From the NCBI RefSeq assembly GCF_007097145.1, contig NZ_VJVZ01000001.1, positions 558,001-622,000 of the forward strand: DNA of 64,000 nt, read 5' to 3'. Under the pieces are notes generated by a model that worked only from the letters and a program-made list of their open reading frames with translations, made no database searches and was not told the DNA's origin. The DNA is from Flavobacterium zepuense (lineage in GTDB: Bacteria; Bacteroidota; Bacteroidia; Flavobacteriales; Flavobacteriaceae). Numbering within the stretch: position 1 is the stretch's first letter; each line of letters opens with the position of its first letter. Made by a program: the position numbers and the translations under genes. Shown one piece after another: positions 36,815 through 55,500 of this stretch.

Positions 36815-36819
36815 TTTAG

Positions 36820-38217
36820 TTAGATGTTTATCAATATAGAATATATTTCCTCAAGCGAAGTACCGCCTTCCGCGAGTATATCAAAAGCCTTGTCTGATAA
36901 GCTTTTATGACCTTCAATTGTATTTATTTTACTTATAAAATTATTTTTTATAGCTTCTGCTGTGGGCATATCAATATTAAGCACTTCATAAATTGCAATC
37001 CTGCTTTTATAGCCTGTATGGTAACACGAATTGCACCCGCCGGCTTTATAAATTTTTGTAAGCTCGTAAGGAATTTTATAGCTTACAGGGAAATCTTCCC
37101 GTGCATAGTTTACTTCTTTTTTACAATTATCACATAGTTTTCTAACAAGGCGCTGCGCTACAGACAGATTAAGTGTTTCGGCTATAAGATATGATGGTAT
37201 TCCCATATCTATTAATCTTGAAATAGTTCCTGTAGCAGAGTTGGTGTGAATTGTAGATAAAACCAAATGCCCTGTTAACGATGCCCTGATTGCCATTAAA
37301 GCAGTCTCGGGATCCCTTATCTCTCCTAACATAATTACATCGGGGTCCTGCCTTAAAAAAGACTTTAATGCAGTGGCAAAAGTTAAACCTATATCTTCTT
37401 TTAACTGTACCTGGTTTATGCCTTTAAGTGTATACTCTATAGGATCTTCTACAGTAACAATATTTCGTTTACTGTCGTTTAAAAGTTTAAGCGTGGCATA
37501 TAGCGTGGTGGTTTTACCAGAACCGGTTGGACCGCTAATAAGTATAATACCGTGCGGCTTTTTAACAGCTTCAAGATAATCATACAGCTCCTGGTCTTTA
37601 AGTCCTAATGTTTTAAGATCTATATTAGAAGCATCTTGTCCTAAAAGCCTCATTACAATTTTTTCGCCAAAAAGTGTTGGCAAAATAGAAACCCTTATAT
37701 CAAAATTATTATTTGTTATCCTGCCATCCTGCGGCAGCCTCTTTTCGGTAATATTAAGTTTTGCCTTAATTTTAATTTTATTTACCAGCTCTAAATAGTT
37801 ATCCTGTTCTACCTTATATCTTTCTATAAGCTGGCCGTCTATTCTAAAGCGTATACGCGCACTTTCTTCGTACACTTCAAAATGAATATCACTGCTTTTA
37901 AGCGATTTAGCTTCGCGCAAAAGTGTATCAAGAAAATCAGTATTCTCTATATTTAAAGATTTTTCTGTCTCTACAGCTCTCTCTTTCCTATAGTATACAG
38001 AAAGTGCTTTTTCTATTTCTATAGATGAGTAAGGCAATAAATTAACCTTACCACCTAATAATAATTCGAGTTCATCTTTTAAATCATCTATTGAGCTTGT
38101 TTCATCTGCATAAAAACTAAGCATACCGGCTTCGTTACCTTTAGGAAGTATTTTATAATGATTTGCCATATCACCAGAAATAAGATGATGATTTTCCTGC
38201 TGGACAATAATTTCCAT
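36820..38217 (-). CDS. gspE: Type II secretion / type IV pilus assembly ATPase
   Basis: 465 residues. N-terminal GspE_N-like part (~1-110), then the hexameric ATPase: Walker A GPTGSGKTT (229-237), Asp box VTVEDPIEY, Walker B-like PDVIMLGEIRDPETA, His box LSTIHTNSATG, and a four-Cys zinc site (LCDNCKK...GGCNSCYHTGY) as in GspE/PilB. It powers pseudopilus extension. Only one such ATPase is encoded and no PilT-like retraction ATPase is present in the operon, which points to secretion or non-retracting fibres. Confidence 0.94.
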   Translation of the reverse strand: MEIIVQQENHHLISGDMANHYKILPKGNEAGMLSFYADETSSIDDLKDELELLLGGKVNLLPYSSIEIEKALSVYYRKERAVETEKSLNIENTDFLDTLLREAKSLKSSDIHFEVYEESARIRFRIDGQLIERYKVEQDNYLELVNKIKIKAKLNITEKRLPQDGRITNNNFDIRVSILPTLFGEKIVMRLLGQDASNIDLKTLGLKDQELYDYLEAVKKPHGIILISGPTGSGKTTTLYATLKLLNDSKRNIVTVEDPIEYTLKGINQVQLKEDIGLTFATALKSFLRQDPDVIMLGEIRDPETALMAIRASLTGHLVLSTIHTNSATGTISRLIDMGIPSYLIAETLNLSVAQRLVRKLCDNCKKEVNYAREDFPVSYKIPYELTKIYKAGGCNSCYHTGYKSRIAIYEVLNIDMPTAEAIKNNFISKINTIEGHKSLSDKAFDILAEGGTSLEEIYSILINI

Positions 38218-38219
38218 AG

Positions 38220-38711
38220 TTATCTAATTAAAGTTAGGTTATAATTATCCGTTAATAGATCTATAGCTATTATAGCAGTAAGCAAGAGAGAGGCATATCC
38301 GGCTAAAGGTATCGTAGCGTTTGATTTGTACATCTTTTTAAATATATAGTACAAAACAATTGAGAACACTAGCGAAAAAATAAAATATAAAATATAATTA
38401 TTAAAAACAAAAAATGGTGTTACAGCCAGATAGAATATCAGGTCACCTATGCCAAAATAATTTTCAAAAGGATTTGTTACCGATTTATTTTTAAAACTCA
38501 TATAACCAAATAAAATTAAAAAGGTTAAAACAAAAAATAAACTATTATAAATTAAGATAATATAATTTGAGTTATTTAGGTAAACACCGGTTAAATAACA
38601 TCCTGAAATAAAAAGGACTATAGGCAAAAGTATATGTATATGCCTGTATTTTACATCCTGATAAAACATTATAAGAAGACAAAGGAGCGTAGTTATAATA
38701 CTGAGTATCAT
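38220..38711 (-). CDS. One-domain prepilin peptidase (A24 family)
   Basis: 163 residues with about six membrane segments. The two catalytic aspartates of the A24 family are visible: D19 in FYQDVKYRHIH and D90 in the GxGD motif FGIGDLIFYL. The N-terminal methyltransferase/zinc domain of PilD/GspO is absent, so it resembles TadV/FlaK-type short peptidases. It lies between gspE (2-nt gap) and the GspG-like gene (0-nt gap) and should process the four Lys-Ala-type prepilins of this operon. Confidence 0.85.
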   Translation of the reverse strand: MILSIITTLLCLLIMFYQDVKYRHIHILLPIVLFISGCYLTGVYLNNSNYIILIYNSLFFVLTFLILFGYMSFKNKSVTNPFENYFGIGDLIFYLAVTPFFVFNNYILYFIFSLVFSIVLYYIFKKMYKSNATIPLAGYASLLLTAIIAIDLLTDNYNLTLIR

Positions 38712-39152
38712 TTATTCTTTAACAACTTCAGTTAATACTTTCTTTTGGTCAATTTCCCATGTATTAAAACTCCCATCGCCATCAAGATCACTTACAGAAG
38801 TTGCCCTGGCAAGAAAAGAATTATTTGATGATTCTACAATTTCAATTTTATACACGGCCTGCCCCCCTTCTTCAACAGTTAGCTCCTGTTCAAAACCAAG
38901 TTCTTCAAGACTGCCGGAATACTTAGAATACCTATAAAAATTACTTTTCTGAAGCCCATAAACCTGATTAAGCATTGCCTGTGCCTCAATTGCTTTTGCC
39001 TGGCCTATAACCGATGTTTGGTTGGGTAACACCATTAGCAATAAAATACCTATAATACATAAAACAATAAGTATTTCTGTTAATGAATAAGCTTTAAGAT
39101 TGCCCTTTTTAAATTGTTTAGTAATTTTAGTTAGATTGGTTTTCATATTCAA
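38712..39152 (-). CDS. gspG: Major pseudopilin, GspG-like
   Basis: 146 residues. The prepilin signal is GNLKA|YSLTEILIVLCIIG: leader of 21 residues ending Lys-Ala, mature Tyr1, Glu5 present, then the hydrophobic helix. A conserved Pro follows (VLPNQ). Near the C-terminus SDLDGDGSFNTWEID looks like the calcium loop of GspG-type pseudopilins. Would form the bulk of the pseudopilus. Confidence 0.85.
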   Translation of the reverse strand: MNMKTNLTKITKQFKKGNLKAYSLTEILIVLCIIGILLLMVLPNQTSVIGQAKAIEAQAMLNQVYGLQKSNFYRYSKYSGSLEELGFEQELTVEEGGQAVYKIEIVESSNNSFLARATSVSDLDGDGSFNTWEIDQKKVLTEVVKE

Positions 39153-39172
39153 AATGTTATTTTGATACTTTT

Positions 39173-40288
39173 TTAGTGATTAATGATTTTACTTAAATCA
39201 AACATTGGTGCATACATAGATATCATTATAACACCTACAACTAAGCCGATTATTATTATTATAAGAGGCTCTAATATTACCCCTATCATTTTTGTTTGAT
39301 GGCTAATTTCTTCGTTATACTGATCGCTTAGCCGCTCAAACATTATATCTAATTGGTTAACCTGCTCTGCCACTTCAACCATAGATATTAATTTATCTTC
39401 GTATACTTTATGTTTTTTTAAACATTCGCTTAAAGATGCACCGCGTGTAATATCATATTTAATTTGTTCGATTGAACTTTCTATAGGATAAAATCCTATC
39501 ATCTTTGCAGTAAGTGATAGTGACGTTATTAACGGAGTTTTTGATGTAATTAAAAGATTCATAGATTGACAAAATCTCGAAATATAAATTTTTTGTATTA
39601 GATGCCCAAAAAAAGGAATTTTTAAAACCATGCCTGCTAAAAAATTTCTGTAGCCATTTTTTTTACGCATACTATAATGCATAAAAATTAAACCAATAAT
39701 AATAATAGCTAAAACACTAAACACAATGCCAGAGTTATTTGATATTTTTATTATATACTGAGTACTTTTAGGTAACTCACTACCAAACTGCTTAAATACA
39801 GAGCTAAACATGGGTACTACTTTTGTAAGCATAAAGTATAGCACTAAAAATGTAACTATAAGCACTATGCATGGGTAAGTAAGTACCGAAACTATTTGCC
39901 TTTTCATTTGTATTTTTCTGCTAAAAAATTTTTGCAGCTCTAAAAGCACTTCTTCCAGTTTCCTGGTTTCTTCACCTATTTGTATACTGTAATATTCATA
40001 AGCCGAAAAATGGCCCGATACCATCATTGCTTCATAAATAGTTTTACCTTCAACAACTTTATCTTTAATTTCCTGTATAATTTCTTTTTCTAATTTATCT
40101 TTAGTTTGTCTTGCTAAAATTTCTAACGCTTTTTTAAAATCAACCCCTGCTTTAAGCAACATACCCAACTCTCTATAAAAAACTTCCTTCTTTTTATCGG
40201 AAAATTTTTTATTAAAGTTAATTTCCCAATTAAGATTTAAACTCTTTTGGGGCGTAGTCTTTTTGTATGTGCTTAAATCAAAACTCAT
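39173..40288 (-). CDS. gspF: Inner-membrane platform protein GspF/PilC
   Basis: 371 residues with the two T2SSF repeats: FYRELGMLLKAGVDFKKALEIL...AYEYYSIQIGEETRKLEEVL (first) and FCQSMNLLITSKTPLITSLSLTA...LISMVEVAEQVNQLDIMFERL (second), each followed by a membrane helix region, and the terminal LEPLIIIIIGLVVGVIMISMYAPMF. This is the membrane rotor/platform on which GspE acts. Overlaps the preceding pseudopilin gene by 11 nt. Confidence 0.93.
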   Translation of the reverse strand: MSFDLSTYKKTTPQKSLNLNWEINFNKKFSDKKKEVFYRELGMLLKAGVDFKKALEILARQTKDKLEKEIIQEIKDKVVEGKTIYEAMMVSGHFSAYEYYSIQIGEETRKLEEVLLELQKFFSRKIQMKRQIVSVLTYPCIVLIVTFLVLYFMLTKVVPMFSSVFKQFGSELPKSTQYIIKISNNSGIVFSVLAIIIIGLIFMHYSMRKKNGYRNFLAGMVLKIPFFGHLIQKIYISRFCQSMNLLITSKTPLITSLSLTAKMIGFYPIESSIEQIKYDITRGASLSECLKKHKVYEDKLISMVEVAEQVNQLDIMFERLSDQYNEEISHQTKMIGVILEPLIIIIIGLVVGVIMISMYAPMFDLSKIINH

Positions 40289-40778
40289 TTTTATCTTTTA
40301 CTTTTAAAAGTTGATCGGCGTATATTTTTTTATAAAAATTTAATTGTGTTTCTACATTATCAATATTTAAATGACACTGCAACCTTTGATAAATATTTTT
40401 TTTTGACTCACTGCTTATAGTATCAATTTTTACTTTTGTTACGGCTACAAAAAATGTATCTGTAAGATTTTCACGCTCTAATACAAAATATTCTGCTGTA
40501 TAATTATATCGTGATTTACTACCATCATAGTTATTAAAAATAAGAGCATCATCATCTAAAAGCATCATCAATTCGCTATCATAAATACCTTTTTGTAAGC
40601 TATAGGTAAGCCTGTTTACATCATTAATTTGTTGATTTTGCTTTTTAAAATCAAACAATCTTTCAGAACTCACAGTAAATATTACAAAAATTATAGCAAT
40701 TATAATTGCTGTAATTGCAAGGCCTACAACCACTTCAACTATTGTAAATGCTTTTATATTGTAGCCGTTATTATTCAT
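40278..40778 (-). CDS. Minor pseudopilin (GspH/I/J-like) 2
   Basis: 166 residues from the ATG at 40778, chosen because it puts a short leader before the prepilin signal GYNIKA|FTIVEVVVGL (Glu5 present). The ATG overlaps the stop of the preceding pseudopilin gene by 8 nt, typical coupling. A longer start at 40817 would place odd hydrophobic residues before the leader. C-terminal domain beta-rich, with an extended FAVTKVKIDTI segment. Confidence 0.8.
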   Translation of the reverse strand: MNNNGYNIKAFTIVEVVVGLAITAIIIAIIFVIFTVSSERLFDFKKQNQQINDVNRLTYSLQKGIYDSELMMLLDDDALIFNNYDGSKSRYNYTAEYFVLERENLTDTFFVAVTKVKIDTISSESKKNIYQRLQCHLNIDNVETQLNFYKKIYADQLLKVKDKNEF

Positions 40779-41112
40779 TATTTGTATAAAAAAACTGCTC
40801 AGGATAATCCTGCACACTGTCTCTGTATTTTACAATAGTTTTACTAAGATTACTATTTACAATCTGTGTTTCTATGTTATAATTTTGTTGGCCTTTTTCT
40901 TCAAATATTGAATCTTGTTGTAATTGAGCCATAAAAAAGGCTTCATATATTTTGTTCTTAGATGAATAAAATTTTAAAGATGTTTTGCTTGTAAAAACAG
41001 CCGAATATATCATGACCGCTATGTATAAACATACTGATATGATACTTAATGCCACTACAGATTCCAGCAATGAGTTCGCTTTAATATTACAGTAATCTTT
41101 TAATAAGCCCAT
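40771..41112 (-). CDS. Minor pseudopilin (GspI-like) 1
   Basis: 113 residues from the ATG at 41112 (in-frame ATGs at 41130 and 41148 are alternatives). Prepilin signal YCNIKA|NSLLESVVALS with Glu5. Small beta domain follows, as in GspI. Overlaps the GspK-like gene by 26 nt. Confidence 0.75.
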   Translation of the reverse strand: MGLLKDYCNIKANSLLESVVALSIISVCLYIAVMIYSAVFTSKTSLKFYSSKNKIYEAFFMAQLQQDSIFEEKGQQNYNIETQIVNSNLSKTIVKYRDSVQDYPEQFFYTNNE

Positions 41113-42298
41113 ACTTCTCTTCCTTTTCATTAAAAACCTGCACTCCAATAAAATAGCTGGGTCTTTTTTTACTATTTATTTCAACATCTGCCAAACAATT
41201 TTCATAATTAGATACGGCTGTTTTGTGCGAAAGTTTGTTAGTGTAAACTGAGCCAAAAACATCACTTTTAAGCATCAGCTTACCTTTACAATATATATCC
41301 CCAACTATATAACCACCCTTATCAATATCAATACTATTATTATCTAATGCTCTGTCCGGAAATCCAAAAAGTATAATATTTCCTAAAATTTTAGTGTTTT
41401 CGCCAATAATTATAGTACTCTCATCTAACGTATCGTTAAAAATCGTTACTCCTGAAGGATATAAAAATTCTGAATTTTTACCTATTTGCAATCTTTTGGT
41501 AGCCAGTGCCTGTACAGTACCTTTAAATCCATCTTCAAAAACAATTATCGGAGCTCTAATTATAACATCCTCAAGATGAACGGTATTTTTTATATAAACT
41601 GAGTCTGCCGAATAAAGCACAATATTGCCCTTAATATTCACATTAGATAAAACCGACCCACTTATATTAATATTTTTTGTCTCATTAAAAAAAGAGTTAA
41701 AGTATAATGAATCATTTATCTTTTCCACGTTAGCCAAGTTGCTATTAACACCCGAGTTTTGCTGAAATGCATCTTCTAATCTGTTGTTAATTTCAGGAAG
41801 GTAATTTAGTGATTTTGAGACACCACCGCTTAATGTCAGCAAATTAGGCTTACTATCAATGTAAAGTGCCCTGATGTCTTCTGATGATAATTTCTTTTCT
41901 CCCACTAACTTTACGCTACCGGAGTATGATAGACTATTACCAAAATCGGTTAAATACAAACAGGTAGCATTATTATCATACTGCCCTGCAAAATGAACCG
42001 ATGCAACAGTATCATTCTTAACAAATGATCTTGCAGTAATAACTGTAAACAAACCAAATTGTTTGATATCATATTCATCAGTTATACCATTTTGGGGGTC
42101 GGGTTCAGTATTTTCCATATCCATATTGCCCAAAGCAAAATTCACTAAAGATTGGTTGTGCACATAGAGCTCTTCGTGGGTAACATAATACAGATTTAAC
42201 TGATTGTATAAGTTAGCTATATATAACAATGAACCACATAGTAAAGACACTATTAGGCAAACATATATGGCATATAGTAAACTATGGGCTTTAACCAT
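41087..42298 (-). CDS. GspK-like tip pseudopilin with bactofilin/beta-helix domain
   Basis: 403 residues. A very short leader precedes a class III-like signal, MVKA|HSLLYAIYVCLIVSLL: Lys-Ala at the cleavage site but Tyr instead of Glu at +5, the feature that marks tip subunits such as GspK. Residues ~195-350 contain regularly spaced short strands (GSVLSNVNIKGNIVLYSADS, VHLEDVIIRAPIIVFEDGF, GYIVGDIYCKGKLML) like a right-handed beta-helix or bactofilin. Could cap the pseudopilus. Overlaps the MORN gene by 8 nt. Confidence 0.7.
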   Translation of the reverse strand: MVKAHSLLYAIYVCLIVSLLCGSLLYIANLYNQLNLYYVTHEELYVHNQSLVNFALGNMDMENTEPDPQNGITDEYDIKQFGLFTVITARSFVKNDTVASVHFAGQYDNNATCLYLTDFGNSLSYSGSVKLVGEKKLSSEDIRALYIDSKPNLLTLSGGVSKSLNYLPEINNRLEDAFQQNSGVNSNLANVEKINDSLYFNSFFNETKNINISGSVLSNVNIKGNIVLYSADSVYIKNTVHLEDVIIRAPIIVFEDGFKGTVQALATKRLQIGKNSEFLYPSGVTIFNDTLDESTIIIGENTKILGNIILFGFPDRALDNNSIDIDKGGYIVGDIYCKGKLMLKSDVFGSVYTNKLSHKTAVSNYENCLADVEINSKKRPSYFIGVQVFNEKEEKYGLIKRLL

Positions 42299-43082
42299 TA
42301 TTTTGATTCTCTTTATTTTTTTTAGAAAATAATCTTTTAAAAAAGCCAGGCTTTTTTTCCTTTCGCTGCTTAACTGTTTCAGCCTGTTGTACGGCTTTAA
42401 CTTCTGCAGTATCGTTAATTGGCGCGTCTTTCTTTTTAAAAATTCGTTTAAAGAACCCCGGCTTTTTTTGATTAGCAGAATTTTCCTGTACAGCTACTTT
42501 ATTTTTATTGTCCTTTTTATAAAACACTCTTTTTATAAAACCAGGCTTACCGTTAGCTGGCTGAAGCGTATCTTTTACAGGCTTAACTTTTTTAACAACA
42601 ACTTTACCTTCGCGGTACTTAAGAGTATCTTTGTTTATAAAATTAATCCAACGGCCATGCTTTAAACTATTTTTATAAGTACCTGTTTCGGTTAAAAAAC
42701 CGGTTTTATCATACGCAAAATAACTTCCGTCTTTTTGTCCATCATCATAATAGGTCTTTGATTGCAGCGTACCATTTTCAAACCAGGTTTTCCAATAACC
42801 TTCTCTTAGGCCTTTTTTATATTTACCGGCTTCGGCGAGCTGATTACTATGATAATATTTTAAGAAATCGTCTTGAAGGAGTTCACCGCCAACACCATGC
42901 TCGCTACTATGTATAGTTCCTCCTTTAAACCAATAATATGTTTTACCCTCCTTGGGTGTAATATCCTTATCGGTTGTAAAAAATTCATACCGGAAATACT
43001 CATCCGAAATGCGCTTTTTTAAGGATGTTTCACTAAACGAAAATAGGGCAAAAACTCCCAGTAACAGAAAATACTTACGCAT
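42291..43082 (-). CDS. Exported MORN/YwqK-type repeat protein, first gene of the secretion operon
   Basis: 263 residues with a signal peptide (MRKYFLLLGVFALFSFS). Residues ~70-155 hold MORN-variant repeats (YYHSNQLAEAGKYKKGLREG, WFENGTLQSKTYYDDGQKDG, YDKTGFLTETGTYKNSLKHG), which form a beta meander. The C-terminal ~90 residues are basic and contain three copies of KPGFxKRxFxKK (near 178, 207 and 244). Operon leader; function unknown, perhaps envelope anchoring. Confidence 0.7.
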   Translation of the reverse strand: MRKYFLLLGVFALFSFSETSLKKRISDEYFRYEFFTTDKDITPKEGKTYYWFKGGTIHSSEHGVGGELLQDDFLKYYHSNQLAEAGKYKKGLREGYWKTWFENGTLQSKTYYDDGQKDGSYFAYDKTGFLTETGTYKNSLKHGRWINFINKDTLKYREGKVVVKKVKPVKDTLQPANGKPGFIKRVFYKKDNKNKVAVQENSANQKKPGFFKRIFKKKDAPINDTAEVKAVQQAETVKQRKEKKPGFFKRLFSKKNKENQNNG

Positions 43083-43286: not shown

Positions 43287-43371
43287 GATTACTATCCTTT
43301 CGGGATGCTCGTGCCTAACCGCCATGGCAACACTCCTGACTACAGGTATGGGTTTAATGGACAGGAAATGG
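43287..43371 (+). repeat. Inverted repeat copy IR-L (85 bp, RHS core fragment)
   Basis: Encodes DYYPFGMLVPNRHGNTPDYR and the following YGFNGQEM. By eye it differs from the copy at 47539-47623 at one base (C43310). Contains GCCATGGC (43321-43328) and CCTGACTACAGG (43335-43346), small dyads that could mark a crossover site. Confidence 0.9.
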
Positions 43372-44240
43372 TTGATGAAATATCTGGAGAGGGAAATCAT
43401 ACAACAGCACAATTTTGGGAATACGATGAAAGGATTGCATTTAGATGGAATAAAGATCCCGTTGTAAAACATTTTGAAAGTTCGTATTCTGTTTTTGGCC
43501 GAAATCCTATTTGGAGGATAGATCCTAATGGAGATGACTGGTATATAGCAAAATCTGGGAAAAAAACTGGCGAATATAAATGGTTTGAAGGTAATGGCAA
43601 GCAAAAAGGATATAGTCATGCTGGAAATTATAAAGTAGAATATGATAGAACAAAAAATACAGTTAATGTTTATGAGGGTAAAAATTCTGTATTTAAAGAA
43701 AGTATTAATATGGATGTGATTAAAAATGACAAAAACGAGTTTGTTAAGTTTAAAGACGATAGAGCCGCAAAATTTTCAATGTTGTCAGCTGAAAGCGGAG
43801 GAGTAAATATTATGGATGAGGATCCATTTTTCGATCCACTAATTATATCAGCCTCAATTGATAACAGACAAAAAGTTAGCGATGCAGGAAATGACGGTTT
43901 TGCATCTTACAAAGGTCAGGCGTATATCGGTTACCATGCGAAAAAAACTAAGGCTTATAAAGATTTTTCTGAGGGAAACAAAAAAAGATTTAATGATAAT
44001 ATGTGGGGCGAACATTTATCATTATCTACAGTTTATAACGCACTTGATTCCCCTGTAACAAAACTTAAAACTGACTTTCAAATGAAACAGGCAAATTATA
44101 TATTATATTATTCCCATCCAGGTGGGCATCCTCAAAGCTCACCAGCGTTTAATCTTGTTTTACCTACAAACATAAAACATCGATTTGTTAGTGTACAAGG
44201 TGATAAAACATATATGAACACGTTGGATAATAAAAAATAA
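43305..44240 (+). CDS. Silent (orphan) RHS C-terminal toxin tip
   Basis: 311 codons. It begins inside an 85-bp copy of the RHS core and has a stop directly upstream, so it is probably not translated from its own start. It repeats the RHS core border (GEGNHTTAQFWEYDERIAFR), the auto-cleavage type motif P-IWRI-DPNG and then a unique tip of ~245 residues. The tip resembles, at low identity, the active tip of the giant protein: WFEG, LIISASIDNR, AYKDF and ILYYSHPGG are matched there. No known toxin family is recognised. Followed after 1 nt by a candidate immunity gene. Confidence 0.8.
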   Translation: MLVPNRHGNTPDYRYGFNGQEMVDEISGEGNHTTAQFWEYDERIAFRWNKDPVVKHFESSYSVFGRNPIWRIDPNGDDWYIAKSGKKTGEYKWFEGNGKQKGYSHAGNYKVEYDRTKNTVNVYEGKNSVFKESINMDVIKNDKNEFVKFKDDRAAKFSMLSAESGGVNIMDEDPFFDPLIISASIDNRQKVSDAGNDGFASYKGQAYIGYHAKKTKAYKDFSEGNKKRFNDNMWGEHLSLSTVYNALDSPVTKLKTDFQMKQANYILYYSHPGGHPQSSPAFNLVLPTNIKHRFVSVQGDKTYMNTLDNKK

Positions 44241-44241
44241 T

Positions 44242-44925
44242 ATGAAATACATCTACATATTATTTTTTATTGCTATCACTTGGCATATTGGAGGTCAAAC
44301 AATTCTTACTCCTGATACTTTATCTAAAGTAGCATGGGAAAAATTATTTAAAAAAAGCTTTGGGAAAAAAGTTAAAAAAAAATTGACCATTAAAATTAAA
44401 AATAATAATTACTTTTTTCCTGAAAATTGGTATTATGACGATATTAAAAAAGACTGTTCTGAGTGCAATTACTTATTTTATACCATAGATGAGAATTCTT
44501 TTTTGCTAATTATGTACAATGATGTACAAGTTGGTAATTATATATTTTATTTTAATGACAAAAAAATCTCTAAAAGTTGGGTCCAGATAAATTATCTGGC
44601 AGATGTGACGAATTTTTTCAGAATTAATTCCGAACTATATATGTTCGAATTAAAATATTTTGACTATTCTAAAAATGAGAATACTTTTAGATATATATTT
44701 TTAAACCCTTCAAGTGGAATTATTACAAATGAAGTAATTGACACTTTTGCAAATACATTAGAAATTATGGATATAAATGATAGTAATAAAAGCATAAGAA
44801 TTAAAATTAACAATAATTATTTCTACTATAGTTACAAATTTTTTAAATTTATTGAGGTTCCAATAAATCCTAAAGGATTTATAATTTCGGATTGCATATT
44901 TCGCTATATAAAGAAAATAAAGTAA
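44242..44925 (+). CDS. Candidate immunity protein of the silent tip
   Basis: 227 residues, AT-rich gene, with an N-terminal signal or membrane anchor (MKYIYILFFIAITWHIGGQ). The rest is beta-rich with many Lys, Asn, Tyr and Phe (e.g. ENSFLLIMYNDVQVGNYIFY). No family recognised. Position 1 nt after a toxin tip is the usual place of an immunity gene. Export suggests protection in the periplasm or membrane. Confidence 0.6.
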   Translation: MKYIYILFFIAITWHIGGQTILTPDTLSKVAWEKLFKKSFGKKVKKKLTIKIKNNNYFFPENWYYDDIKKDCSECNYLFYTIDENSFLLIMYNDVQVGNYIFYFNDKKISKSWVQINYLADVTNFFRINSELYMFELKYFDYSKNENTFRYIFLNPSSGIITNEVIDTFANTLEIMDINDSNKSIRIKINNNYFYYSYKFFKFIEVPINPKGFIISDCIFRYIKKIK

Positions 44926-44950
44926 ACTTTATGAAAAATAAAATGAATTG

Positions 44951-45997
44951 TTAAATTAAATTTAATTTATTGTACACCTTTTCAACCTCATTATCCATGT
45001 AGGATTGGGCATAGTGCACGTAACGGTTAAAAGAACTACTTGCTGTACTATGCCCACTTATTTTTCGTACCAAATGCTCCGGCATTCCTAAAATTAAAAG
45101 CGTGGTTATTGCGGTGCGCCGCATCATGTGCGAACTCATTTTATCACAAAAGCGATTATTGGCGACTGTGTTTTTGAGAGCGATTTTTTTTGTCTTGCCT
45201 TGTTTTTCTCGGGATACTTCTACGACATTTGTAAACCCTGCCTGCTCGCCAATTTGTTTTAAACTTTTATTGAAATTAAAAAGACTAATTGTACCAAATA
45301 CAGGAAGTTTACTGTTGGCCGCCTTATACTTTTTATAAATATCTATAGCATATCCTGGTAATTTAATATAACTAAAAACCTTAGTTTTTTGCGATTTTAA
45401 TTTTATATACCAGTCATCTCCGGTTTGTTCAAAATTTTTATTTGTTAATGAAAAAATGTCAGAAAATCGTAATCCGGTTGTACAGCCAAAAATAAAAATA
45501 TCTTTTATACGTCTTAATGAAGGAATAAGGCTTTGTTCAAATTCTTTATTATGTATTAAAAATTTAAGTTGCTCCGGAGAAAGTACAAATATTTCAATCT
45601 CTTCTTTTCGAACATAGAATAAACGTTGAAAATCGCCGGTATTAAAATCTTTATCATTTTTTAAATAATTAAAGAACACCCTGATAGTCTTCACATTATT
45701 ACCTACATAATTATCGTAACAACCTTTTTTATATAAAAAATCGGTAAATTTTTGATAAAACTTTTTCCAGTAATTCTTTTCAGATTGTAATTCCCTTGCA
45801 TTAAGTTTTGATGCATCACATAGTCGTAATTCAAATTTTTGTTCAGTACTAAATTGTACCAAATTTTGTAAAACATAATAATAGTTTTGTATAGATTGGG
45901 GCTTTATTCTTTCTCCATTTTTTTTTAACCTTTTACCTGTTTCGGTATCTTTTATAAATTGTTTAAATAATGGTATTAATGGTAAAACTTTTTTCAT
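44951..45997 (-). CDS. Tyrosine recombinase inside the invertible segment
   Basis: 348 residues. N-terminal SAM-like core-binding domain (~1-130) and catalytic domain with R177 (TTGLRFSD), K204 (SQKTK), H290 and R293 (SHMMRRT), H316 (SGHSTAS) and nucleophile Y326 (NRYVHY), the complete set. It lies between the two immunity candidates, transcribed with the active toxin direction. I infer it inverts the 4.2-kb segment at the 85-bp repeats. A minus-strand TATATTTG (46009-46016) lies only 11 nt before the ATG, so an own promoter is possible. Phage or transposon genes are absent around it. Confidence 0.92.
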   Translation of the reverse strand: MKKVLPLIPLFKQFIKDTETGKRLKKNGERIKPQSIQNYYYVLQNLVQFSTEQKFELRLCDASKLNARELQSEKNYWKKFYQKFTDFLYKKGCYDNYVGNNVKTIRVFFNYLKNDKDFNTGDFQRLFYVRKEEIEIFVLSPEQLKFLIHNKEFEQSLIPSLRRIKDIFIFGCTTGLRFSDIFSLTNKNFEQTGDDWYIKLKSQKTKVFSYIKLPGYAIDIYKKYKAANSKLPVFGTISLFNFNKSLKQIGEQAGFTNVVEVSREKQGKTKKIALKNTVANNRFCDKMSSHMMRRTAITTLLILGMPEHLVRKISGHSTASSSFNRYVHYAQSYMDNEVEKVYNKLNLI

Positions 45998-46049
45998 TAT
46001 GTTTTTACCAAATATAGAAAATATAATATTTAGAACAGATTTTAAATTC

Positions 46050-46535
46050 TTAATGTGTGAAAGCTCCCTTTTGATTAACCAAAATTATCTTATGGTTTTG
46101 ATATGATAATTTTACGCTGAATTTTGTTCTATATATATAATTAAGATTTATACTGATTTGATTATTTTCAACCATTATTTTATAATTGTAGCTACATGGA
46201 TATGCAGTCATAGATACTTTATTACCTTCCATTATATAAATGTTTTGATAAAATATTACACCTTTTTTAATAAAACTATCGTCTTTTTCAATAACAACAA
46301 AAATATCATTTGGACACTTATATATACATATCGAATTATCCATTTTTACAAATACGTCAACATCTTTAATAAAATTTCCCAAACTATTTTTTATTAAATA
46401 TTTTTTTGGAATGATTTCATTACTAACTGCTTTTGCCCATGAAGTATAGTTAGCATTTATTTCTTGTTGTGTAATAAATAATTTTATTATACAACAAGAA
46501 ATAATAGTCATGATATAGAAAATATTTTTTATCAT
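46050..46535 (-). CDS. Candidate immunity protein of the active RHS tip
   Basis: 161 residues. N-terminal hydrophobic segment (MIKNIFYIMTIISCCIIKLF) for export or anchoring, then a small beta-rich domain with two Cys near KCPND and AYPCSY. The ATG overlaps the TAA-containing end of the giant RHS gene by 4 nt, so expression is coupled to the toxin. No family recognised and no evident similarity to the other immunity candidate. Confidence 0.6.
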   Translation of the reverse strand: MIKNIFYIMTIISCCIIKLFITQQEINANYTSWAKAVSNEIIPKKYLIKNSLGNFIKDVDVFVKMDNSICIYKCPNDIFVVIEKDDSFIKKGVIFYQNIYIMEGNKVSMTAYPCSYNYKIMVENNQISINLNYIYRTKFSVKLSYQNHKIILVNQKGAFTH

Positions 46536-49500
46536 TTTAAACCAAAATATTCCATGATTTTATCTTGATAAGGCTTTTTATAGGCTTTCAAACTTTCGAA
46601 AAATTCAGCTTCACCTCCAAATTTAACATCTCCCCATAATAAAATATTGGATTTACTTTCTACGTTAGTGAGCAATGTTCCAACAGAATTAAATGATATT
46701 ACTCCCGGCGAATATAGTAAATTCCCAACACCATTATGACTATATGCTAATATAGAATATGCTTTAACTCCTATAGATTTAAAGTTTAACAACCTTTGTG
46801 CAGGATTTTCTAAAGCAGCAAACGCATTTCCGAAATATGTAAATTTATCTTTTTTAGATATCCCACCCGATGCTAAACTTGATTCCCATGTCCAAAAATC
46901 TTTATAAGCCGCTTCACTAGCTCCATTATATTGGCTTTTTGTAAACATTGACTCATAAGTTTTACCATCTCCAAATGCTCCATTCAAAGCCTTATCGTTT
47001 TCTGCAATACCTGCCGTTCTTAAACGATTATCCATCGAAGCTGAAATTATGAGCAAGCCATAAAATGTTTCTCTATGTGTATTATTGCTGGCGTTAACAC
47101 CCCTACCTGTTTTATCAATACCATATGCTTTTTTACTGTTGAATCCACCTTCTGCGAGCAACATTTTGTATTTTTTACCTAAGTCTGTTGATAAAGTGAT
47201 ACTCCTTTTATTCTCATTTTGATATTGAATAGTGATAGAATTTTCTCCTTTTGCCATAGTAACTAAATATTCTCCTAAATGAGTAAATCCATCTTTTTGA
47301 TCACTTCCCTCAAACCATTGATATTGTTTACTTTCTTTATCTTTAGGATTATAATTATTATTCTCATACCAATCAGCCCCATCAGGATCAACAAACAATA
47401 TAGGATTTCCGCCAAAAACTGCATAAGGTGAAAGATAATCTTTTTTGACTGGATCACGATTCCATCTTTGGGCTATTCTAGGGTCATATTTCCAAAAGTC
47501 AGCATGATATAAATTCCCTTCACCCTTAACTTCATTATCCATTTCCTGTCCATTAAACCCATACCTGTAGTCAGGAGTGTTGCCATGGCGGTTAGGCACA
47601 AGCATCCCGAAAGGATAGTAATCGTTAAAGGTTGTAACGTCTGGTTTAAACAGGGTTGCAAAGTCTCCTGCAGGCGCTGCCGGCAATGTATAAATAAATA
47701 AATTATCGGCATAGAAAAATAACAGACTAAGCGGTGGCGCATCTACTGTTAGTGACACCCGGTAAGCGGCTGTTGTAGGACATTCAAACCTTAGTGTGTA
47801 TACACCAGGAGTTGAAACCTGCTGCTCTGTATATACCAGTGTTGATGTATTGTTCCTTACGTAAAAACGTACTGGTGTACCTGCCGGTAATGTACCCGGA
47901 TCTATATACATCTGGATAGAGTACACTACTCCGGCTGTAAATGTAAACGACCTATACACACCACTACCGTTAGTTTGTGGATTTACCCTCATTCTACCAC
48001 TCACAATACTATTAGTTGCTGTAGGTATATTGGTGAAGCCCGTACTGGTTTGAAACTCGTTATTGTATGTTAAAATAAGGTTATTGTCTACCAGTTTTCT
48101 GTCGGTAATAACATTTAATACGTTTCCTAAATGGTTAGAAAGTTCGTAACGCTTATCTCCTATTGTATTAGTATAATTAACTTTACTTATAGGCCTTGAC
48201 GTTTCGGCTACAATTGTATTATTAGGGTCTAAATAATCCGGAGTGCCATCACTATCACTATCTAAAGGATTAACGGGCACACCCGGCAATCCATTTGCAT
48301 AAGCATTAGGACTTTCCTGTAAGGTAGGATATCCGTCGCCATCATCATCAGCATCCAGATAATTTTTCAGCCCATCACCGTCAGTATTCTGAGCGCCATC
48401 AGTAAAGCCAACCACTGTTTGCCCTGCTATTTCATAACTTGTAAGTATGGTGTCTCCGTCATCATCAGTATCTAAATAATCCGGTATACCATCAGCGTCT
48501 GTATCGTCGTTAGCAACGTTACCATCACCGTTAATATCCTCGTAAAGATCAAATATTTTATCTCCATCAGAATCCGCCAAACACGGCCCGAGTGTTCTGT
48601 TAAGGATATTCATGTTTATGGTTATAATATTATCATCCGAAAACACCCCATATGTTGCAGGACTTTGGCCTCCAGGGACATCAAAACCAATCCATCTATA
48701 AAATCCTACCTCTGCAGAATTTACCATACCATAATTAAAATTACACATGCTATAACTCGGGTTGGTTGTACCTGCTAAAGTATTTTTAATAAATGAATTA
48801 CTTGTAGCACTAAAGGCTTCAGTGCCTACTGTTGGAGGAGTAATTGTAGTATCAAATAGTCCATTTAGCCCATTTACTTTAAATACGTAATCCGCTATAA
48901 TCAGTGGTGATGTATTGTAAAGACCAAAATCTATATTCGCATTAAATTCAATATCCATACCGTCGGCAGTCATTACCGCCTGTGATATTTTACTATCATT
49001 TGATGTTGCAGCCGGCGTAAGTGTAATTTCCTGTTTAATTCCGGTAGATATAGTATGCTTAATTTTTATTATTGGATAATATTTACTACTGGCGTCTTTT
49101 CTAACTATAACCTGCATGGTAGATTTTTCCTGGTAGTTTGTTAAATTTACCTGATCTATATGTGTTCCATAATATCCAAGTCCGAAATCTAAAAACAGTG
49201 GTGCATTTGGCGTAACTTCGGGAGTTGATGCCCCAACTTGCGCTGAATTCTTTAAAAATCGCACCTTTCCATTAACCCTTTCAATAGATAATTTGTCATT
49301 CACCGCAATAACTGTCGACGTAATTAGCGATGTACCTTTATAGCAAGTTGCATTTGTACCGGATATCCTAATAGTATATGTAGGTTTTGTAATACCATAA
49401 TCTGTTAATGCACCTGTAAATGTGTGGGTTTCAGATAAACCTACATAAGCAGCATTTGTACTGGAAATATCTGTTACAGTTAATTCAAGTTTACCCGCAC

Positions 49501-52500
49501 CATTAATTGTCTGAGTAGATCGTGCTCCAACATTATATGCTAAAGACTGTGTAAATGTTCCTAAACCAACTTTTGAGATGGTTTTTGTTGTGTTATTAAT
49601 AACAAGGCCCGTTGCATTTATAAGTTGTATTGCCTGGCCATCAGTTGCATTAAATGTTGGGGCAGATATTCCGGTAGCAATAGTTATCGGTGTTGCTCCC
49701 AATGTTAACATATTAACATCTACATACATGTTTTGACCAACAGATGCAGTAGGTTCGGCTATACTTTTTAATAATAAAGTTTCTGTACCTCTAATTCTAT
49801 AAAAGTAAACATGCCCGTTATATCGCTCCACACGCAGCTTATCACCTGTTTGAACAATACTATTATTTGTGGATAATGCTAAAGCAGTAGGCGAAGCATT
49901 ATTGTAAAGAATTACACTTCCTGTTGTAAACGTTTTAAAACCATAGTCGATATCCAAACCACCTGTTGCAACAGCCGCAATAGTATAAGACAAACCAAAA
50001 TTAAGTTCCTGCAGGCTATTGATCGTTCTCTCAATATAACCATTACCTACAATTACTGCCGATGTCGTGTTAGCTTTTTTCCAAAGAGTACCTCCGGAAA
50101 TTTTATTTAAAGTAGATGATGAATATGTTATAAATGCAGGATCTACAGTAAATGTACTGCCACTAACAAATCCTGCTGTCTTATCACGTAATGTAAATAG
50201 CGGATTCGGCTCCGGAATATTAGATTCAACCTGTCCTATCAATACATCAGAATTAACAGGTGTAGCAGCATCAAACTTAACCTTTGTACTAAAACTAAAG
50301 TTAGATAACAGCTTGTCGCTTAATGTTGGATCTGAAGGTTCAGACCAGGTTCCCTGAGTTTGTGGTGTTATATTTAATGAATAATCTTCAAATACTTCAA
50401 CTACTTCACCAGGATTTACATCATTTGTTGTGTACTGTGTATCCTGATTTGTTTGAGGGGTTGTGAGCGCTGATGAAAATACTAATGATGAAGATTTAGC
50501 CATTAAAGTATTTTCCTGCTCCAAGCCTAACCTACTACTACCATAAATATGATGTTCATCAAGATAGTATGTTTTAGATCCGCTTGCTGTCGTAGTATAA
50601 GTGTATACTCCCAATACGTTACCTTGGGCGTCTCTTGAATATTGGGTAACTTTTTTATCGTTAACCTCTGGTGTTTCTCTAACAGTTTTAGAAATCCGAT
50701 TACCTAAACCATCATATTGAAAGTTAATAGTTCTTCCTGTTGAATTTTTTACCTGTTTAACTTTACCATCCACACGCCAGCCAATAGTTAATCCTTCTTT
50801 ATTATCTATAATTAACTGACCAATATTATCATACTTATAATTACCAGGTTGCTGATTATCTATATCTATATTTTCGCCATTAGGGCCAAATACGTTATCG
50901 GCAACACCATCACTCACATAATCTAATTTATTGCTGCCACTAATATAGTTATAAGCTAATCTGTCCATATCAATTATACCACCTGTATTATCAGGTGCTT
51001 TAGCCGTTAATTTGGTTATATTACCATTATTATCGTAGGAATATCCTGATGATATATCTGGCGTAACTGTACCCGATACAACTCTTGAGCTATTCATAGA
51101 CATGATCCTGTTTAACTGGTCATATTTATAAAGATTAGCCTGGGAGGCAAGTGCCAGCTGATCTAAACCTCGTAAAGTAGTTATCATTTTACCAATATTA
51201 CCATTATACAAAGGTGTCATACCTGTTATATTAGGAGTTACATCAAAGGTATTTGTATTAGGAGTAATAGCTTTATAATCATTCTCAAAGTAGCTAAGCG
51301 AAAATGCAGTAGCATCTTTTGCAACAAATGGCCTTAATGTAGCTTTACCGTCACGGCCCATATCGCTATCAATGTTTCGCATATTTTCTGAATTCACAGC
51401 TTTTAACCATCCTTGTATTGTATATGCGTAGTCAACACCTTGTACTTGTTTATCACCTATTTCGGTACGGGCTAAAGGCCCATGATCATAGTAATAATAA
51501 GCAGCATCTTTTTCCCATATTACACCATTTTTAGATGTTTTTACATCAACAATGCGATTATCAGCATCATATGTATATTGATGCATAAACTGATCTCTTT
51601 CGCCTTTTTGGTACGTAACTTTATTAACATTACCGCTAACAATATCGTATTCATAGTTAACCCTTTTATATTTAAGCGATGAGTTTAAATCAATATAGAT
51701 ATCATTATTAAATTGTAGCATTTCATTAACATTGCCATGAATATCGTAATTGTAGGCAATGTAATTATTATAGTTAGCATTGTTAACCGGGTCTGTTAAT
51801 TCATCGTAGTAAAATATAACTCCCACTCTATTTCTAACATTCCTTGGTCCAGAAATAGTAAAAGCGTCCAGCCCTGCATAACCATCATAAAGTGTTCTTG
51901 TAACCTCCATAGTTTTAGCACAAACATTATATGGATAGTTAACAACCGTTGGGTAATCAGATGTAATTACAGCAGAACCATTAGAGTATTTAAGTCTTCC
52001 ATTATCATCAATGCCCATTACAACAGGCTTTACCATCTGCCCGCTTTCAAAAATCCTGCCTAAGGCATCATAGCGCGTATAGCTAAATGTTTTATTGGCT
52101 AACTGATTAGCATTTTGCGAAGCTATTATGCGGCCAAGTTCATCATAAGCAAAACGTGTAATACCGCCATCCGGGCTTGTTTGCCATACTAACTGATTAA
52201 GTGTATTGTAATGATAGTTTGTAGTTAAACTATGTTGTGGCAGCAAAGTACTATTATTAGTTAAACCCTGTAGTTGCCTGTGCTGATTTATTTGGGAATT
52301 AAGAGATATACCCTGACCATTTTGTTGGTTAAGCTCACTAACTTCAAACCTGTCTACACCTTTAGGAGGTACAGTTCTAGTTAAATTTCCTGCCTGATCA
52401 TAATAATACAAAGTGTATTGATATTCTTTATCATAATACTGCATATTAAATGTTTCAATTGCTTTTGTTAAAGCATCCTGCAAGTATGCAATCCTAAATT

Positions 52501-55500
52501 CCTGCCTTTTACTGTCGAGGTAGGCATTGTATGCATCGGCATTATAAGCCTCTGTAACGTTTATAGCGAAAAGTTCACAGCCATTCTCGGTAGGTACAAC
52601 AGGTGCACACTCTGGTATCATAGGTGGAGTTTTGCAAATCTCAGGATGCGCAGCCATAAATACATCATTTATAAAATATGGCCAGCCCTTACTTTCTTCC
52701 GGTAATGACGGATTTTGTAAATATAATTTATATTCTACTATAGCAATATAATAGCCATCGTAACCATAACCAAGTGCATTACCCCCAAAATCCGGCAATG
52801 ATATATACCTTGGATCGTTTACCGATGTTATACTAAATTGTTGAAGGTAAGTATTCCACGCGTCTAAAATGTACGCAAGGTTAAGGCAGCAAAACTCATC
52901 TTTGCTAAATATAAAGGTAGGCTCTCCGCCACCATATAAGCTATTAATCTTGCTAACATACTGTGGATATTTCTCATCACAGCTAACGGGTAATGGCTGC
53001 TTTGGTATACAGTCGCATGGAGGGTCGTTTTTCACAACCACTCTGCGTGTACATGCGATTCGATGGCCCACATAATCTGGGAAATTTGTGGGTGTATTAA
53101 TTTCATCGCCAATAATGTCACCATTTGTTAAAACTACTCCATAATAGCTCAAAATTTGAAGTTCGTTTTCAAACAAGTAAGCAAACATTTGATCGGAAGT
53201 TAAGTAGATATCCTGAACATATACACCAAAAGGAACCCTCAAATAATATAGTCCGCCACAAGCTTGCGAGTTATCAATCCCTCCACCTTGAAAAGTAATT
53301 TCTAAATTATTGTTTTGAATACTATAGGTTAAATTAGTAACACCAAATGCATTATAGAAATAGCTGTCTAATTCCCAAACAGTAGGAGAATCATACGTCG
53401 AAACATTTATGTTATTATTAAGGTTATAAATAGCAAAATCTATAAGTTCGTTTAATAATATTTTATTTAGTTCTAAATACCTGCCAAAGCTTCCAGGCCC
53501 AGTTGCGAAAGCTGTGTTACAACAATTAAAATTTAAAGCAGTTTGAATTATCTCACCTTTTCTTGGATCTACAGTTAGTAAATAGATCTGGCCGGCGAAG
53601 GAAGCCTGAGAGCCATTTAAATTTGTAATTACATTAAAATAATTATAGTCTCCGAACTCCTGGCCTACATCAGTTAAAATTAAACCCTGTTGAAAATCAA
53701 GTCCGGTAGCTTCCATCACAATTCCCGAGCCCCCACCAGTCATGGTAATAGAATACACTCCATTAACATATGTCCATGCAGCTACGCTGGAAGGAGTCAT
53801 ACCCAAATATACATAGAAGTATCCTCCCGGTTGAAATTGTGGAAGATTATTAAGCGGATAATTAGGAGCATTTACAACGTGGGCAGATATGAGCTGCTGA
53901 ATAAGAGTTTGCAGTCCCGATTCAAAATCCTGATTAGCACTGCAGGTATATTGCTCATCGCAGTTATTACAACATGAAAAATCAAATGGATTATTATTAT
54001 TAAAACTACCTCCATTAAACAAAAAACCGTTATAAGTGATTGGCTGACCACCAACCTGTAAAATAACACTTATTTTATGCCCATAAGCCGTAGCAGTTGC
54101 TAGCGATATATTACTTGTAGTTGTAATTTGGCTAAGAATACCAACATTAATATCTAATACGGGATTAAGTAAATTTAAGGGAGTATTAAAATTAGCAATA
54201 CTTAATACTATTTCATTATTTAAATATAAGGCATAATAGTCTGTCCCATTATTTACAAGGTTACCATGCCAGTTTAATACATCACCTGATTGTAAGCTTA
54301 AGAAATTGTATAAAAAACTATTTGGAGCAAATGATGGATGATTGCTTACATCTACAGATGTATTATTAATTGTCCCGTCTGATTGTAAACTCGTTAAAAA
54401 TTGTTTAAAAGCAGTAGCAAAATCTTCTTTCTTGGTGCATTCACCATCGCCATAAACAGGTTCAAGATAAATAGCTTCAGAGCCGCTTTCCGGGTCATAA
54501 ACCTCAGTTAAGTCATTCGTACAAAATAATCTTGCACGGGTTGTACCGTCTAAAACAACTTCAAAAGCTACAGATGCATTTTGATTGTGTATAATTTTAG
54601 CCAATACTTTAAATCGGTAACACTCTTCATTAGCATCATAAACAGTGCTTACAAGTTGTTTCATTTGTACTATTGTCCAGCCGTTAAGGTTTTGCTGTAA
54701 TGTTTGCCCGTAATTGCTGTTCCAGCTTATAGCCCCACCTGCAGGGAAAGTTGTTCCTGTGGGGATTGTTAAGGTTACTGCCCTATCAAATAACGGGCTT
54801 GGATTGTTAGTTTGTAAAAAATTTATAATTAGGGTTTTACCACTGTTTACAATAGTACTTGTAACTGATAAGGGTTGAGTTGGAGCACCGTTTAAAACAC
54901 CTCCCAGTTCCTGAAATAGCCCCTGCGTTATAAAAGGCATTGGTATTATACTGTTAGATGCCTGCCCTCTAAATACCGGGAACATTGTTGGCTTTTTAGC
55001 CGCTTCGTGTAAAAATATTTGTAAGTCATTTACCATAGGGCAAATACCTTGCTGTATCAATATTTCATATTGGGCGTTAGCCAGCATATCATCATAATTA
55101 GATTGCGCATCTCCTTCTGATTTATATATCTCATCATAAGGCAGGAACCTTTTTGTTTTTGTAGTTAAATAAGCGCCTTGATTTGTTGTATAAAATAATG
55201 ATGAATTGCCCGGAGTAAAAGCGTCAACCCAAGCTTTAATTTCATTACGCTGTGCAGGATAAAAATCTATTACAGATGTAATTCTGTTTACATTTTGCCC
55301 GTTTTCGCTGCCAATACAGTCATTATACATACCTTGCTTATAGGCATAAAGATTAGTGAACACATGCTGTATCCTTTGTTTTGCACTTATGTAATATGTA
55401 TTAAAGTAATCCCAAAAAGTAGCCTTATCTGCATCAGAAAACGTATTGTTTATATGTGCAATTACATTATTAAATGGGGTATTTGCAGGTAAATCGCAAG

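Follow-up and report, generated by a model that had tools for sequence, protein, structure and literature searches.

A predicted recombinase-driven inversion switch for the C-terminal tip of a giant RHS protein in Flavobacterium zepuense and related Bacteroidota

The stretch of DNA analyzed here (the window) comprises 64,000 nucleotides of Flavobacterium zepuense (NCBI RefSeq assembly GCF_007097145.1, contig NZ_VJVZ01000001.1, positions 558,001 to 622,000 of the forward strand), and coordinates below refer to its first letter as position 1. It encodes a giant RHS protein whose C-terminal tip lies at one end of a predicted invertible segment, together with a second, silent tip, two small candidate immunity genes, and a tyrosine recombinase. 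The features of this locus are as follows.

43290..47620, no strand: segment predicted to invert, bounded by the first bases of the two 14-bp sites
43287..43371, plus strand: 85-bp repeat copy, silent side
43290..43303, plus strand: predicted crossover site copy 1, TACTATCCTTTCGG, silent side, from the intersection of identity intervals in 26 inverted pairs
43290..44240, plus strand: silent RHS tip without an RHS body (open reading frame 43305-44240, homology from 43290)
44242..44925, plus strand: immunity candidate 2, 227 amino acids, placed right after the silent tip
44951..45997, minus strand: tyrosine recombinase, 348 amino acids, predicted invertase
46050..46535, minus strand: immunity candidate 1, 161 amino acids, with a 4-base overlap with the active-tip stop
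46532..47620, minus strand: active tip, fused to the RHS protein
47539..47623, minus strand: 85-bp repeat copy within the RHS gene
47607..47620, minus strand: predicted crossover site copy 2, TACTATCCTTTCGG, RHS side, from the same 26-pair intersection
46532..58999, minus strand: RHS/YD-repeat protein, 4155 amino acids (Pfam RHS_repeat, NCBIfam Rhs_assc_core)

The two 85-bp copies are inverted, differ by one mismatch, and both translate to DYYPFGMLVPNRHGNTPDYRYGFNGQEM in the same phase, and the similarity continues over 111 bp, with 11 mismatches in all (90% identity). Queried with these 111 bp, the genome (4.76 Mb in 41 contigs) returned only the two places in the window and no third copy. 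The order between the copies is mirrored, with the active tip and its immunity candidate on the minus strand, the recombinase on the minus strand, and the second immunity candidate and silent tip on the plus strand. The initial annotation, made from the letters alone, had described these repeats and this layout, and both its repeat coordinates and its open reading frames were confirmed. The RHS protein has YD/RHS repeats and an Rhs-associated core ahead of a variable C-terminus (PF05593, 40.9 bits against a cutoff of 22; TIGR03696, 34.8 bits against 32.5). In the silent copy, TAA TAA GAT precede TAC in frame, with stops two and three codons upstream, and the silent tip, itself an open frame, therefore lacks an RHS body of its own.

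Our sequence comparisons indicated that 43290-47620 is very probably a recombinase-driven flip switch swapping the RHS tip along with a candidate immunity gene. In the proposed mechanism, the tyrosine recombinase encoded in the segment would invert it by crossing over within the 14-bp TACTATCCTTTCGG, found in inverted orientation at the start of both RHS tips, and the inversion would give the 4155-amino-acid protein the silent pair in exchange for its present tip and candidate immunity gene. The recombinase, whose frame is intact, would do the flipping, in the window strain as well. In relatives, the two-tip switch grows into arrays of several convergent cassettes around the recombinase, and inversion between copies of opposite arms would therefore bring different tips to one expression site.

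The window recombinase matched Pfam Phage_integrase (expectation value [E] 1.8e-11), and R177, K204, H290, R293, H316, and Y326, which we take to be the catalytic residues of a tyrosine recombinase, were invariant in 65 aligned sequences (the window and 64 of 66 relatives, leaving out L078 and L089, neither of which could be read in a single frame; L and G numbers are our handles for loci and genomes). The initial annotation had likewise called the recombinase complete. An identity as XerC or XerD was rejected, with NCBIfam scores of 31.8 against a cut-off of 335.15 and 30.6 against 329.6, far below both. Relatives were collected in a family scan with one genome per species, which gave 67 loci; one of them, L093, matched over only 21 residues in a cyanobacterial bin and was removed as spurious before all counts, leaving 66 at 45-85% identity. 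According to record titles, these 66 loci belong to Flavobacteriaceae, Chitinophagaceae, and other Bacteroidota. The family is scattered rather than universal, since 7 of 395 Bacteroidota genomes (the F. zepuense genome included) matched the recombinase at E 1e-40 or better. An origin as a phage or plasmid integrase was not favored, since at E 1e-20 phages gave no match and plasmids a single one, and the RHS context is steady.

The architecture of the window recurs in other Bacteroidota. An iterated RHS-core profile seeded with the window's two copies detected core copies in the fetched DNA of 59 of the 66 recombinase loci, on both strands in 42, so that the layout was found beside other RHS genes, and the association of the recombinase with an unrelated element, which the initial annotation had named as a contrary outcome, did not hold. 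Among the seven core-less loci, three (L031, L081, and L082) showed a YYPFGM motif within ~60 bp of a contig end. Copies with an in-frame fusion to over 200 upstream codons were termed active and numbered exactly one at each of 26 loci. Left of the recombinase, 76 copies lay on the plus strand and 16 on the minus strand; to the right, 2 were plus and 54 minus. The cassettes therefore mostly face the recombinase, with exceptions that include loci where it sits just outside the inverted pair. Four or more core copies occurred at loci including L038, L044, L046, L049, L050, L052, L063, and L073, with a maximum of six. Silent copies ending in a stop (n=120) ran for 287-486 codons from the core in 119 cases and for 100 in the other, and two loci from single-contig genomes, L191 and L192, are laid out as in the window.

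The crossover was mapped with pairs in which both copies begin with TACTATCC (the window and 25 of the 42 loci with copies on both strands). In these 26 inverted pairs, perfect identity always spanned positions 0 to +13, a stretch of 14 bp, TACTATCCNTTYGG. As pair selection fixed positions 0 to +7, the informative positions are the wobble bases at +8, +11, and +14, which matched within loci in 26/26, 26/26, and 25/26 pairs and between loci at frequencies of 0.39, 0.49, and 0.44, respectively; within-locus identity fell to 0.14-0.52 at -4 to -29. The agreement of wobble bases within loci and their variation between loci map the crossover to the 14-bp stretch. The inner cassettes of arrays often lacked TACTAT and began near +7, which would fit an outer arm that stays put as the tip side moves. 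The initial reading is thereby refined, in that a 14-bp part of the 85-bp repeat is common to all compared pairs, and relatives reach six core copies.

Genomes were searched with the site pattern TACTATCCNTTYGGNATG and, as a control, with the same pattern reversed but uncomplemented. The site was present in 8/8 genomes picked for their contig ends, in 35/49 other recombinase-bearing genomes, and in 8/100 genomes (the F. zepuense genome included), whereas the control gave no match in the 8, 49, and 100 genomes, making chance very unlikely. Within the set of 100, the pattern occurred in four of the five genomes with a close recombinase (G000, G024, G054, and G066; not G038) and in 4 of the remaining 95 (G006, G023, G033, and G076). 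An inverted identical pair on one contig was found in G000 and G054, with none in G006, G023, G033, and G076. The window's genome contains two crossover sites, fewer than a multi-site shufflon.

Three assemblies, those of Flavobacterium piscinae ICH-30 (G100), Seonamhaeicola aphaedonensis CECT 8487 (G102), and Winogradskyella wandonensis CECT 8445 (G104), join the same tip both to the RHS-side flank and to the silent flank. In G100, the RHS-side and silent-flank contig ends run into one tip for 124 bp, the outer tips share 32 bp, and the inner segment forms a separate contig, both ends of which start exactly at the boundary between GAT and TAC. In G102 and G104, the same join extends over 91 bp, compared with repeat identities of 24 and 18 bp. 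The RHS-side flanks were open upstream for 169, 500, and 500 codons in G100, G102, and G104, respectively (500 being the whole fetched stretch), and the silent flanks for 44, 6, and 4 codons. Because these assemblies join one tip to both flanks, both orientations are probably present in the three relatives. Contigs also end at the site in G101, G103, G105, G107, G108, G127, G142, and at one end of L193, which is weaker evidence. An embedded recombinase gene would flip with its segment, and its direction should thus vary among relatives. At loci with an active copy (L064, L067, and L078 unscored; L077 included), embedded recombinases pointed in the direction of the RHS gene in nine cases and opposite to it in eight, and those outside the segment in nine and zero cases, respectively (Fisher p 0.023). 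The single orientation across relatives that would have spoken against the initial annotation was accordingly not what the comparison gave.

Each window tip is directly followed by a small open reading frame. Identity between the two tips is 38% when the core is included and 28% outside it, the two immunity candidates have no mutual similarity, and candidate 2 has a hydrophobic N-terminus that looks signal-peptide-like by eye. A Pfam scan covered 141 tips, namely, 139 of the 146 fetched tips of at least 100 codons and the window's two, leaving out one each from L061, L063, and L071, the gap-spanning L044 copy, and three from L088. It matched 28 Pfam families, and each of the 25 listed was found in one to three tips, including WHH, GH-E, LHH, Ntox21, Ntox35, Ntox43, and Colicin-DNase, as well as Tox-PL-2, Peptidase_M91, Tlde1, and PT-HINT. 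The tips were diverse, with 44 similar pairs among 150. The between-locus pairs over at least 100 amino acids (n=35) comprised 13 active-silent, 21 silent-silent, and 1 active-active pairs. Short relatives exist for the window's silent tip, and among those of similar length the nearest is 52% identical; a search for full-length RHS proteins with a related tip returned only the window's own protein. As the window tips match no toxin family, the label "toxin" rests for them on the relatives; the tips would be secreted antibacterial toxins to which the small genes give immunity.

Three other explanations were weighed against a recombinase-driven switch of toxin tips. The silent tip could be static, a displaced inverted leftover that undergoes at most rare homologous exchange beside a bystander integrase, as might be expected from the orphan RHS tips of Salmonella, known to be activated by homologous recombination (PMC3967940), and from the RHS arrays of Ornithobacterium, interpreted as displacement (PMC13183296). 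The single orientation of the window assembly agrees with this, and the window's 85-bp repeat could in principle recombine homologously. However, only 14 bp are common to all 26 pairs, and the repeats of some individual loci are identical over no more than 18-24 bp. Identity of 14-24 bp is short for RecA, and RecA-dependent exchange was rejected as a general mechanism because the homology is too little. With both junctions in three assemblies, the recombinase family beside RHS tips at 59/66 loci, and long frames in 119/120 stop-ended silent copies, a static orphan is very unlikely. We regard as highly improbable that the contig-end pattern in relatives is an assembly artifact of repeats or mixed strains rather than within-clone inversion. 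Two of the genomes concerned, G103 and G107, are metagenome bins in which a strain mixture is possible, and identical core copies are longer at some loci (122 bp in L066/G127 and 49-75 bp in L063/G105). In contrast, G100, G102, and G104 come from named strains, and the stretch shared at their contig ends (127, 95, and 95 bp) is far longer than the repeats (32, 24, and 18 bp), so that reads spanning both joins should have existed if the assemblers behaved as we infer, and the recombinase-direction test is independent of contig ends. It also seems unlikely that the switch is real but exchanges binding or surface domains in the manner of the PilV shufflon, not toxins. The mutual similarity of the window tips would suit variants of one domain, and neither matches a toxin family; yet in some relatives, known toxin domains, among them nuclease and peptidase domains, occupy the tip position, and each window tip directly precedes a small gene unlike the other's, as in toxin-immunity pairs.

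Several observations weigh against a recombinase-driven switch of toxin tips. The window was assembled in one orientation only; the initial claim of an invertible switch draws on the double junctions and the mixed recombinase directions of relatives. Contig ends are indirect evidence of orientation, with assembler settings inferred; the RHS-side flank of G100 reaches a stop 169 codons upstream of the site; each flank carries one tip only in G101, G105, and G142 and no tip in G103, G107, G108, and G127; and junctions are ambiguous in G128 and G124, which, like G113, were inspected as both-orientation cases and not counted. The direction test gives a modest p value, takes no account of relatedness, and counts L077. 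The TACTATCC selection left 17 of the 42 both-orientation loci out of the crossover map, and the exact site pattern is missing from 14 of the 49 recombinase-bearing genomes. The site variant YYPFGS is used at L030 and the active copy of L077 looks degenerate, so some loci may be locked; the recombinase of L069 has an internal stop, that of L078 and L089 has no single reading frame, and the active frame of L054 is open for only 242 codons. Regarding function, both window tips and both immunity candidates matched no curated family above cut-off, most tips of relatives also matched no family in the Pfam scan, and a fold prediction of the silent tip from a five-sequence alignment was not used because of a mean predicted local distance difference test score (pLDDT) of 34. 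For the toxin label that the initial annotation gave the tips, known domains were found in some relatives' tips and none in those of the window.

A motif was noted at the silent copies. GTTCTT lies at most 60 bp upstream of 61 of the 103 silent core copies in L027-L091 (control, 2.2%), mostly at offsets -34/-35 or -17/-18, and resembles a GTTCTTTAACA stretch in the ribosomal RNA (rRNA) leader of the window's genome that we take to be boxA-like. It might let transcription cross an untranslated tip to the immunity gene or serve as an accessory site for recombination. No such motif occurs within 120 bp upstream of the silent copy in the window, and an rRNA antitermination 15-mer had no match in the window's genome.

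Other records bear on the distribution of the recombinase. The genome of Hyunsoonleella pacifica holds two recombinase loci (L039 and L042), and G110, G147, and G152 each have two or three inverted site pairs, from which we conclude that several switches can coexist per genome. At L177 (G076:C116), an RHS tip that begins with the same site lies ~140 bp beyond the end of the match to a distant tyrosine recombinase (30% identity), a hint that other recombinase clades may also act in tip switching. A circular plasmid record of Flavobacterium sp. N1861 (L190; NZ_CP109997.1, 26,892 bp) encodes the recombinase along with secretion genes and has two directly oriented sites; it may represent an excised circle or else have arisen in assembly.

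A type II secretion/type IV pilus-like gene run, recognized with Pfam, ends ~200 bp from the silent repeat.

34910..43082, minus strand: type II secretion/type IV pilus-like gene run
34910-36814, minus strand: secretin (Pfam Secretin, above cut-off)
36820-38217, minus strand: T2SSE ATPase (Pfam, above cut-off)
38220-38711, minus strand: leader peptidase-like (below cut-off)
38712-39152, minus strand: pilin-like (below cut-off)
39173-40288, minus strand: T2SSF (Pfam, above cut-off)
40278-40817, minus strand: pilin-like, N_methyl (Pfam, above cut-off)
41087-42298, minus strand: 403-amino-acid protein of no family
42291-43082, minus strand: MORN protein (below cut-off)

Relatives of genes 36820-42298 were present in the fetched DNA of 11 of the 66 recombinase loci; when the MORN gene was also counted, the number was 21 of 66, plus four of six further loci. 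A relative of the T2SSF protein was found in 32 of the 42 switch-bearing genomes searched, and in ten (G104, G105, G108, G109, G118, G124, G127, G142, G148, and G149) it lies at most ~6.5 kb from a site or within the segment. At L062, the recombinase sits within the secretion-like gene run. It is possible that this machine exports the RHS protein. Delivery by a type VI secretion system was not favored, as the genome search gave no VipB match. Farther away in the window, two adjacent open reading frames (28233-29495 and 29515-30543) are rich in glycine repeats and collagen-like by eye. As a broader proposal, advanced tentatively, these loci may constitute a phylum-wide class of self-contained toxin shufflons, in which a dedicated recombinase would cycle toxin-immunity cassettes (two here, up to six core copies elsewhere) through one giant-RHS expression site, export would run through its own linked type II secretion-like machine, and one arm of the site would stay with its chromosomal position as the tips move.

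The most likely mechanism resembles that of a known system, the shufflon, in the form of an inversion switch that here would serve a polymorphic toxin, exchanging RHS tips along with immunity candidates. In the R64 shufflon (pilV, Rci), a tyrosine recombinase likewise inverts segments and exchanges the C-terminal part of one protein, and the Rci sites consist of a 12-bp arm, a 7-bp core, and a 12-bp arm with full conservation only in the core and one arm, a one-sidedness resembling the RHS switch site (PMC11852207). The substrate differs, being an RHS protein with immunity candidates here and a pilus adhesin there, and in our loci, the recombinase is often inside the flipping segment with cassettes converging on it, the window having two sites; the likeness to Rci is one of description. 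In the same phylum, Tsr0667 of Bacteroides fragilis shuffles SusC/SusD alleles by recombinase inversion (PMC11852207), although these are outer-membrane proteins, not RHS tips, and the likeness is again one of description. The Salmonella orphan resembles the window in having a silent tip and immunity gene beside the main rhs that are activated by core fusion; there, the proposed route is locus duplication followed by homologous recombination over 522 bp at 95% identity, an exchange that would itself remove the main immunity gene, whereas inversion in the window, with its inverted sites and its recombinase gene inside the segment, would lose nothing (PMC3967940). The related bacteria Ornithobacterium hominis and Bergeyella cardium also have a large rhs gene accompanied by arrayed, dissociated tips with downstream genes, for which the authors invoke displacement, with no mention of inversion or an array recombinase in the portions of the reports available to us (PMC13183296, PMC6421346). 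Polyimmunity loci can adjoin XerC/D-type recombinases (PMC3482391), and the accessible text of a genome-wide inversion survey does not use the term rhs (PMC5903667). Among the matches listed in full-text searches, with subscription literature mostly outside, no title or abstract described recombinase-driven RHS tip inversion, and nothing there contradicted the initial annotation's remark that it knew of no such version described.

In the parts of the literature available to us, changes of RHS tips have so far been described as displacement or homologous recombination (PMC3967940, PMC13183296). If our reading is true, a dedicated reversible recombinase would make the choice of tip a programmed trait, and a clone could hold sub-populations with different weapons, each genome keeping both immunity genes, which would raise the question of how cells survive sisters armed with the alternative tip. 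Such a switch would also supply a family of recombinases and sites, in which the site is short and defined, and a way to seek switch states in existing sequence data.

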